NCBI RefSeq assembly: GCF_039691755.1
Contig: NZ_CP137552.1
Coordinates: 372,001 to 436,000 of the forward strand
Source of the DNA: Halomonas sp. Bachu 37
Lineage (GTDB): Bacteria; Pseudomonadota; Gammaproteobacteria; Pseudomonadales; Halomonadaceae
Length of the DNA stretch: 64,000 bases
Reading direction: 5' to 3'
Numbering within the stretch: the first letter of the stretch is position 1; each line of letters starts with the position of its first letter. Under the pieces are notes generated by a model that had not been told where the DNA came from, ran no database searches, and saw only the letters and a program-made list of their open reading frames with translations. Shown here in pieces: positions 3,885 through 64,000 of the stretch. The position numbers and the translations under genes are program-made.

Positions 3885-4259
3885 ATGGAAAAGGTGGGAA
3901 GTACCTGCTGGGCTATCGCCGAAGGGTATATACCTGGCTCCGGTCACGGCCCCGAGCCGCAAATGACGAGTCATGAAACGGCTTGCATACTTAATGCCAC
4001 GGAGGTAGACGCCGAGGTACGCATCATGCTGTATTTTTCCGACCGCGACCCGGTGGGGCCTTATAGGATCGATGTACCGGCACAGCGAACGCGGCACGTA
4101 CGCTTCAACGACCTTGATAACCCCGAACCAGTACCTCGTGATACCGATTACGCCAGCGTTATCCAGTCCAATGTTCCAATCGTTGTGCAGCATACTCGGC
4201 TGGACTCACGCCAGAGCGAATTGGCATTGCTGAGTACGGTGGCATTTCCTGTCAAATGA
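3885..4259 (+). CDS. Anabaena sensory rhodopsin transducer (ASRT) family protein
   Basis: 124 residues; ATG at 3885 with AGAGGAG about 7 bp upstream. The protein follows the Anabaena sensory rhodopsin transducer family over its whole length: TCWAIAEGYIP near residue 7, GPEPQ, SHETACILNA, YFSDRDPVGPYR, HVRFNDL and SVIQSNVPIVVQHTRLDS. The Anabaena protein is a soluble beta-sandwich tetramer that binds the cytoplasmic face of a microbial rhodopsin; homologues in organisms lacking rhodopsin have no agreed function, and carbohydrate binding has been suggested. No opsin is in this window, so a light-signalling role cannot be claimed. It lies 72 bp after the SDR gene on the same strand and may share its transcript. 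Family assignment is from remembered sequence similarity. Confidence 0.85.
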   Translation: MEKVGSTCWAIAEGYIPGSGHGPEPQMTSHETACILNATEVDAEVRIMLYFSDRDPVGPYRIDVPAQRTRHVRFNDLDNPEPVPRDTDYASVIQSNVPIVVQHTRLDSRQSELALLSTVAFPVK

Positions 4260-4585: not shown

Positions 4586-4770
4586 GACCTTCTCCGTGGT
4601 TCAAATGCTATGTCCCCTGAGCGCTGCTACTGTTTGCGCTTTATGAGTGACGGTCAGGATAAGTAGCGATACGACATGATATTTTTAGATTTAATGCTTG
4701 GTCCGTTTAAAGTAAATCGCGACCATTTCTCTAATAGACATCCTTTTCATAACCTAGGTTAGTTTATATC

Positions 4771-4928
4771 GGATTCTGCTCTGGCACTGTAAGTTCAATG
4801 CAAGGACGCGTTTCAAGGAAGACGAGACAGGAGTGTCTCGCGTTGCCCAAGGATGCACGGACAGGATGCTCGTGAGAGACGTTAAAGGATTCGTTGCTAT
4901 AAAGCCCGGCCATAGGTCGGGCTTTTTT
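4771..4928 (+). ncRNA. candidate CsrA-sequestering small RNA (CsrB/RsmX/Y/Z type)
   Basis: A non-coding stretch of about 155 nt with eight GGA trinucleotides (starting at 4771, 4804, 4817, 4830, 4851, 4859, 4864 and 4887) that ends in a strong intrinsic terminator. One GGA sits exactly in the six-base loop of a perfect hairpin: stem CGAGAC 4823-4828, loop AGGAGT, stem GTCTCG 4835-4840. Several others are preceded by A/CA (AAGGA, CAGGA), the favoured CsrA/RsmE contact. GGA motifs in loops plus a terminal Rho-independent terminator are the hallmarks of RNAs that titrate CsrA. The 5' end is uncertain; TTATAT at 4764-4769 could be a -10 box, which would exclude the first GGA. I found no clear GacA/UvrY box (TGTAAG-N6-CTTACA) upstream. 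Confidence 0.55.
4902..4928 (+). terminator. intrinsic terminator of the GGA-rich RNA
   Basis: AAGCCCGGC, loop CATAG, GTCGGGCTT (one G-T pair), followed by a run of Ts. No open reading frame on the plus strand ends just upstream, so it probably terminates the small RNA candidate rather than an mRNA. Confidence 0.85.
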
Positions 4929-5009
4929 GTGGGCGACTGCTCCCTTTCGATGACGGTGCGGCAGCTCAGTGGTGGTAAGCTGAAGCTCTGATGAGGTTGG
5001 GAGAGAATA

Positions 5010-5600
5010 ATGTTCGATAAGCACTGGCTAAGGTGGGCGATAACGGCGGCTATGCTGATATTGGCCGGATGCGGGGGGAGTGAGGAAAATCCTGACTCCT
5101 CCACTCAAGTACCGTCTTCGGAGTTCACGCAAGAGGGTCCACGAGACACTGTTGCGAATGAGAAGCCCGAGGTTGAGCCATTGCCAGTAACTATTTCCGT
5201 GTCGGCTCAATTGCGTTCCGATCAGCGGATAGAGGTCGAGGGGCAAACCAACCTGCCCGAAAATGCACGCCTGCTGGTGATTGTAGAACGCGAGGCTAGT
5301 GGGGTGCGCTGGCAATCCAGAACGAACGTGGAACAAGGCGCTTTTTCGGTCGGCCCCCTGGGGCCAGGCAGCGGTATGCCGGACGGCAACTACCGCATTA
5401 TCGTCCAACTCTCCGAAGCCCCCGTGCAGCCTGAACAGGTCCAGCAACGCATCGGACAGCAGGGGCAGCACCTGACGGGAGAGTTGGTAACTGTCTCCCG
5501 TCATGGGCTGGGCCAGTTCGCAAGCTACTCTCAGCGTTACCTTATCGGTAGAGAGCCGCAGGGGGACCGCAAGGAGGTGCGGGTGCTTGAGCGTCCTTGA
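5010..5600 (+). CDS. putative lipoprotein of unknown function
   Basis: 196 residues; ATG preceded by GGGAGAG. The N-terminus is a type II signal peptide: basic start, hydrophobic stretch ITAAMLILAG and lipobox LAGC with Cys21. A Ser/Glu/Pro-rich linker (about 25-60) follows, then a beta-rich domain (TISVSAQLRSDQRIEVEGQTNLPENARLL) that reads like an immunoglobulin-type fold, with repeated Gln residues near 145. Probably exported and lipid-anchored. It is convergent with the XRE regulator 10 bp downstream. No specific function recognised. Confidence 0.72.
   Translation: MFDKHWLRWAITAAMLILAGCGGSEENPDSSTQVPSSEFTQEGPRDTVANEKPEVEPLPVTISVSAQLRSDQRIEVEGQTNLPENARLLVIVEREASGVRWQSRTNVEQGAFSVGPLGPGSGMPDGNYRIIVQLSEAPVQPEQVQQRIGQQGQHLTGELVTVSRHGLGQFASYSQRYLIGREPQGDRKEVRVLERP

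Positions 5601-61403: not shown

Positions 61404-64000
<2,597 letters not shown>

Follow-up and report, generated by a model that had tools for sequence, protein, structure and literature searches.

A conserved GGA-rich RNA of the Halomonadaceae as a candidate CsrA-sequestering decoy in Halomonas sp. Bachu 37

A short RNA gene with GGA hairpins and an intrinsic terminator

Within the window (the whole 64,000-nucleotide stretch of Halomonas sp. Bachu 37 DNA that was analyzed), a short GGA-rich gene lies on the plus strand, and its features are collected in Table 1. A complete protein of the ASRT (Anabaena sensory rhodopsin transducer, PF07100) family is encoded upstream of it, at 3885–4259. No plus-strand ORF of at least 60 amino acids covers 4771–4928, and the two minus-strand ORFs that overlap this interval are 116 and 86 amino acids long. 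The arrangement is that of an independent short gene with a promoter, an intrinsic terminator, and no ORF on its own strand. Note that a simple scan for sigma-70 promoters and terminators listed none for the RNA at 4797–4931, though the sequence clearly shows the terminator, and therefore the promoter was assigned by conservation only.

Table 1. Features of the RNA gene and its promoter region (window coordinates)
Feature	Position	Strand	Details
Possible degenerate remnant of a GacA-like box	4721..4738	+	place of the GacA-like box TGTCGGnAATCTCTTACA in copies of other genera; fewer than 10 of 13 positions match
Perfect 12-bp palindrome	4750..4761		TAACCTAGGTTA; promoter element centred at about −41.5
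Inferred −10 element	4785..4790	+	CACTGT; CActGT is conserved in 110 selected same-genus copies, 35 nt downstream of where the palindrome begins
Csr/Rsm-type small RNA (candidate)	4797..4931	+	about 135 nt; start (~4797) inferred from the −10 element; covariance model R1 matches 4794–4931 at 99.3 bits, this copy being itself one of the model's 12 training sequences
Six GGA common to relatives	4804..4889	+	4804, 4817, 4830, 4851, 4864, 4887; 12-copy alignment
Hairpin with GGA in its hexaloop	4823..4840	+	CGAGACAGGAGTGTCTCG; 6-bp stem CGAGAC/GTCTCG, loop AGGAGT
Second GGA hairpin	4856..4874	+	CACGGAC/GCTCGTG, loop AGGAT; one A-C mismatch in the window copy
Intrinsic terminator	4901..4928	+	stem 4901–4911/4915–4925; T run 4923–4928; helices 3 and 4 of the model

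GGA motifs are found at 4771, 4804, 4817, 4830, 4851, 4859, 4864, and 4887, which places eight of them in 119 nt. At least eight GGA occur in 0.34% of 158-nt segments taken from both strands of the 64 kb, where the mean is 2.3, and eight per 121 nt recur at three other places on the plus strand and at none on the minus strand. Two of these three overlap plus-strand ORFs (825 and 232 amino acids). A repeated CAGGAA tract of high GGA density, for which no ORF of at least 150 amino acids is listed, lies on the plus strand at 62335–62531. Because the motif at 4771 is upstream of the inferred −10 element, it is probably untranscribed, and the RNA would then hold seven GGA. An initial annotation of this DNA had described eight GGA within about 120 nt of noncoding sequence, one of them in the hexaloop of a perfect 6-bp hairpin, followed by a strong terminator with no ORF to terminate. 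The hairpin and the terminator are as described and the count is correct, but the first motif probably falls outside the RNA.

In an alignment of 12 copies from related genomes, the GGA at 4817, 4851, 4864, and 4887 form invariant columns, those at 4804 and 4830 are present by eye in all 12 copies with small shifts, and the one at 4859 is not conserved. The hairpin at the place of 4823–4840 covaries across homologs (helix 1), with a model loop of 7 nt and a window-copy loop of 6 nt. The predicted fold of 4801–4931 is better than those of all 200 shuffles (z −3.03); that of the longer 4771–4931 is not outstanding (z −1.50), 13 of 200 shuffles being equally good. For the window copy, the minimum-energy fold of 4794–4931 leaves three of seven GGA fully unpaired and places one of the seven in a hairpin loop. 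When 139 same-genus RNAs were folded singly, they held 7.4 GGA per RNA versus 4.7 in dinucleotide shuffles, with 58% of GGA fully unpaired (30% in shuffles) and 39% in hairpin loops (12% in shuffles), figures that serve as support rather than proof because the model that selected these RNAs had itself been trained on GGA-rich copies. Thus, the initial expectation that GGA would lie in loops of the folded RNA is borne out at the level of the family, where several are in loops or single strands and the hairpins covary across homologs, but it is less clear in the window copy alone.

Conservation and covariation across the Halomonadaceae

A DNA search of 97 genomes returned matches in 17, several of them over the terminator only. 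In several genomes of the same genus, portions of the RNA were matched at 72–86% identity, and the Bachu 37 genome itself yielded a second copy. We built a covariance model, R1, from 12 copies in eight genomes, the window copy included. At E ≤ 1e-7, R1 has matches in 66 of 82 same-genus genomes (counted from match rows) and in 130 of 275 genomes of the family (nine of 24 genera), the matched genomes including the eight that supplied the 12 sequences. No match at this threshold was obtained in 16 of the 82 genomes of the genus or in 129 of the family's other 193. Counts with R1 were made at E ≤ 1e-7 or E ≤ 1e-6 because matches near 1e-5 include opposite-strand matches, arising from terminator palindromes, of true copies; one search at E ≤ 1e-6 covered 80 loci.

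Three copies were found on contig C1 of the Bachu 37 genome, at C1:376794 (the window copy), C1:477973, and C1:470073, with R1 E values of 2.1e-25, 8.4e-30, and 4.8e-14, respectively. The latter two are about 7.8 kb apart, within C1:468500–479700; one is beside what we take to be an SCO1/SenC-like gene and the other precedes a presumed dicarboxylate-symporter-like gene. Tandem pairs of the RNA a few hundred bases apart are present elsewhere, for example in the genomes G002, G009, G016, and G053. A further R1 match at C1:3092770 (E 1.3e-4) is a GGA-rich 3′ UTR, which was set aside as a separate observation. There, many CAAGGA/TCAGGA motifs are spread over roughly 250 nt immediately 3′ of a gene for a 191-amino-acid repeat protein without a Pfam match, on the same strand, and the sequence 5′ of that gene is likewise GGA-rich. 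The 250-nt stretch may be an mRNA-borne CsrA sponge.

Covariation was assessed with 139 same-genus copies, 137 of them distinct. Both partners have changed in 19 of the model's 21 pairs (shuffles average 11.6), and 95.8% of alignment cells form pairs versus 86.0% in shuffles. The covariation score is 0.366 versus 0.182 for shuffled and at most 0.109 for slid versions. All of these figures are biased toward the modelled structure because the alignment was fitted to it. Helix 2, which corresponds to the hairpin at 4856–4874, shows changes on both sides at seven of its seven pairs.

Promoter elements and copy-number expansions

The promoter counts given here come from copies in related genomes, which are not independent, and from the same promoters in which the box and palindrome patterns had been read; the shuffles used for comparison keep base composition only. 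With the start inferred from the conserved −10 element, the palindrome upstream of the window copy is centred near −41.5, a position at which class II activators bind. Of 139 same-genus copies, 111 have a TAACCTAGGTTA-like palindrome (at least nine of 12 positions) between −48 and −42 relative to the model start; shuffles average 0.6. This count was made without the filter applied for the promoter logo, whose 110 same-genus and 18 other sequences were chosen for a palindrome of at least 9/12, so that its palindrome columns are biased. Among the matches listed for 10 bases of the palindrome in open-licence papers, the portions available included none on Gac/Rsm.

The consensus of the GacA box is TGTAAG-N6-CTTACA. 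No good GacA box was found upstream of the window copy, where the perfect palindrome is present instead. The third copy of the same genome (C1:470073) has a GacA-like box, TGTCGGTAATCACTTACA, at −72, and a poor palindrome (8/12), the two being 8 bp apart. For the genus as a whole, matches to the GacA-like box score no higher than those in shuffles, with a mean best match of 7.6 versus 7.7 of 13 positions, and a box of at least 10/13 is found in two of the 139 copies, one of which is this third copy. In five genomes of other genera, a box of at least 10/13 occurs in 20 of 27 copies (shuffle mean 0.64), and box and palindrome are exactly 8 bp apart in 14 of the 27 (shuffle mean 0.22); the set comprises 27 of 30 copies, loci L142, L156, and L161, which are cut by a contig end, having been left out. 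The consensus is exact in three copies of Modicisalibacter luteus.

Among the 82 genomes of the genus, 14 contain the exact 13-mer TAACCTRGGTTAG, with 17 distinct places in all (18 rows). As judged by comparing coordinates, 12 of these places are just upstream of an R1 match and five are not. A palindrome with one mismatch, AACCTGGGTTAG, precedes an ORF at C1:1787358 in the Bachu 37 genome. We take this ORF to encode an amino-acid-binding transport protein, and the site is a possible further target of the palindrome's putative regulator.

Some genomes of the family hold many copies. Matches to R1 at E ≤ 1e-6 number 18 in M. luteus, 13 in M. xianhensis, 12 in Halomonas sp. McH1-25, nine in Litchfieldella xinjiangensis, seven in Halomonas sp. 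EAR18, six in Billgrantia endophytica, three in H. colorata, and two in H. sulfidaeris, the eight genomes having been chosen for holding a 21-mer of the RNA and overlapping match rows having been counted apart. For M. luteus, 21 match rows come to about 19 loci after overlaps are merged by eye. These copies are diverged in sequence and spread over many contigs, carry 5 to 12 GGA (21 rows), and by our own count, at a cut-off without a shuffle control, have a box of at least 12 of 17 positions at −72 to −97 in 13 of 19 loci. The largest set of Rsm sRNAs found in the available portions of the open-licence literature is that of Azotobacter vinelandii, with eight or nine, which some Halomonadaceae exceed (18 matches in M. 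luteus).

Relation to Csr/Rsm systems and proposed function

The genome of Halomonas sp. Bachu 37 encodes the protein partners of a Csr/Rsm system. It has one CsrA (C1:2004543, 92.8 bits), which by eye equals the Halomonas hydrothermalis CsrA shown in an excerpt of PMC12889724 except for the last residues. A single response regulator passes the NCBI cut-off for GacA/UvrY and combines REC and LuxR-type domains, and one GacS/BarA homolog is 33% identical over residues 5–893 of 918 of Escherichia coli BarA and carries HAMP, HisKA, HATPase, REC, and Hpt domains.

At Rfam gathering scores, the 64-kb window yielded two tRNAs and nothing else. The RsmY model (RF00195, gathering cut-off 57 bits) gives 15.4 to 23 bits for halomonad RNAs where it is listed: 15.4 over its full length at the window RNA, 16.6 at the third copy of the same genome (the second copy is not listed), and 20 to 23 at four places in three of nine relatives' loci. 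Nor does any other Rfam Csr/Rsm family reach its cut-off in the window or in the halomonad loci scanned, and RF00166 (PrrB_RsmZ), RF00018 (CsrB), and RF00084 (CsrC) are absent from the eight Rfam matches listed for 4590–5010 at E ≤ 10. Across 390 genomes drawn from the order, RF00195 gave 16 matches over its cut-off, none of them in the family of Bachu 37, and in the Bachu 37 genome it had no match at E ≤ 0.001. Rfam membership was therefore rejected on score. From the Rfam comparison proposed in the initial annotation, what emerged was this sub-threshold match to RsmY but none to RF00018 or RF00166.

Searched with R1, 11 of 11 RsmY loci, taken from Rfam matches in one other family of the order, presumably the Pseudomonadaceae, are matched in place, with E values from 1.2e-7 to 0.86 that are 0.004 or more in four of the 11. 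These are 11 of 17 RsmY loci, 10 over the Rfam cut-off and one (L194) just under it. R1 did not find CsrB in a 12-kb stretch of E. coli K-12. Because R1 finds RsmY and the Rfam models fit poorly, we take the halomonad RNA to be an unlisted, RsmY-related lineage outside those models. RsmY is similarly about 120–140 nt long, has six to eight GGA in the loci shown, and ends in a terminator, and its GacA box at −75 to −79 in 10 of 11 loci is near the −72 of halomonad copies. Unlike the halomonad RNA, it has no palindrome of at least 9/12 in the 150 nt upstream in any of the 11 loci. RsmX/RsmZ and CsrB/CsrC, according to the portions available of PMC7366521 and PMC7911923, are GGA-rich decoys for CsrA/RsmA under GacA/UvrY, a logic that the halomonad RNA would share, whereas their models are not among the matches listed there. 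In the open-licence papers searched, and in the available portions of PMC7366521, PMC12889724, and PMC13414033, we found no description of a Halomonas Rsm/Csr sRNA.

Other explanations of the locus were weighed against a Csr/Rsm function. The terminator ends about 80 nt before the start codon of a lipoprotein-like gene (5010–5600) on the same strand, and the RNA might thus be a 5′ leader or attenuator of that gene in which the terminator acts as a switch. However, when 90 same-genus loci with R1 matches, weak ones included, were searched by tblastn (flanks of mostly about 1.5 kb), no relative of the lipoprotein-like protein or of four other window neighbours was found, and the paralogs in the same genome adjoin other genes. 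In the absence of shared neighbours at these 90 loci, the leader was rejected, and we consider it very improbable. A random cluster of GGA beside a terminator, with no gene, is what the presence of comparable density in 0.34% of segments would allow, but the spread of R1 matches at E ≤ 1e-7 through 130 of 275 genomes, the covarying helices, and the fixed promoter spacing leave this explanation with almost no weight.

Slightly more room, though still little, is left for an sRNA of the Hfq type, working chiefly through base-pairing, in which the GGA are incidental. In its favour are the terminator with its T run, the purine-rich unpaired stretches, and matches below threshold to several further families of sRNAs and leaders, which rest largely on the terminator. 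Against it stand the conservation of the GGA and their greater frequency in hairpin loops than in shuffles, the link to RsmY, and the GacA-like boxes upstream of many relatives.

The RNA at 4797–4931 belongs to a conserved, covarying, GGA-rich, terminator-ended lineage, and csrA, gacA, and gacS are present in the same genome. Our preferred reading, to which we assign a probability of about 0.9, is that the product of this sequence is a decoy RNA that sequesters CsrA and has two paralogs in the genome. To our knowledge, such a decoy is of a known kind, and this lineage of it is unlisted. The Csr/Rsm-type function first proposed from the window has gained support from strong conservation in the Halomonadaceae, from the covarying GGA hairpins, from the GacA-like box of a paralog, and from the presence of csrA, gacA, and gacS.

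As a CsrA decoy, the RNA would present about six GGA sites once its promoter is switched on, two in hairpins and the others between, and would bind several CsrA dimers, so that CsrA-repressed mRNAs are freed. GacS/GacA probably drives the copies as a set, via the box TGTCGGnAATCTCTTACA at about −72 where it is present. The palindrome, the only well-kept promoter element of the window copy, is probably an activator site, read either by an altered form of GacA or by a second regulator. More tentatively, and at rather less than even odds in our judgment, the Halomonadaceae may possess an Rsm superfamily with a two-site promoter, in which a GacA box at about −72 is followed, typically exactly 8 bp on, by the −41.5 palindrome read by a putative second regulator. 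The genus of the window would have mostly the palindrome only, placing decoy production partly or wholly off direct GacA control, and in sister genera the RNA would have multiplied, reaching at most about 19 loci in a genome, with variant promoters. If this is true, the amplified copies would make CsrA titration a many-input summing device.

In Halomonas anticariensis, GacS/GacA influences quorum sensing, exopolysaccharide, and biofilm, and the sRNA entry for this species in the table of a 2020 review is “Unknown” (PMC7366521, in the portion available). With the halomonad RNA, the RNA link of that circuit, which has been studied chiefly in other bacteria, gains a candidate sequence together with a model and a promoter pattern. 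Genomes that carry at least a dozen copies provide a natural experiment on how decoy dosage sets CsrA activity, and the −41.5 palindrome is a lead to its putative regulator. The promoter element and the copy-number expansions therefore merit more attention than the single locus from which they were approached.
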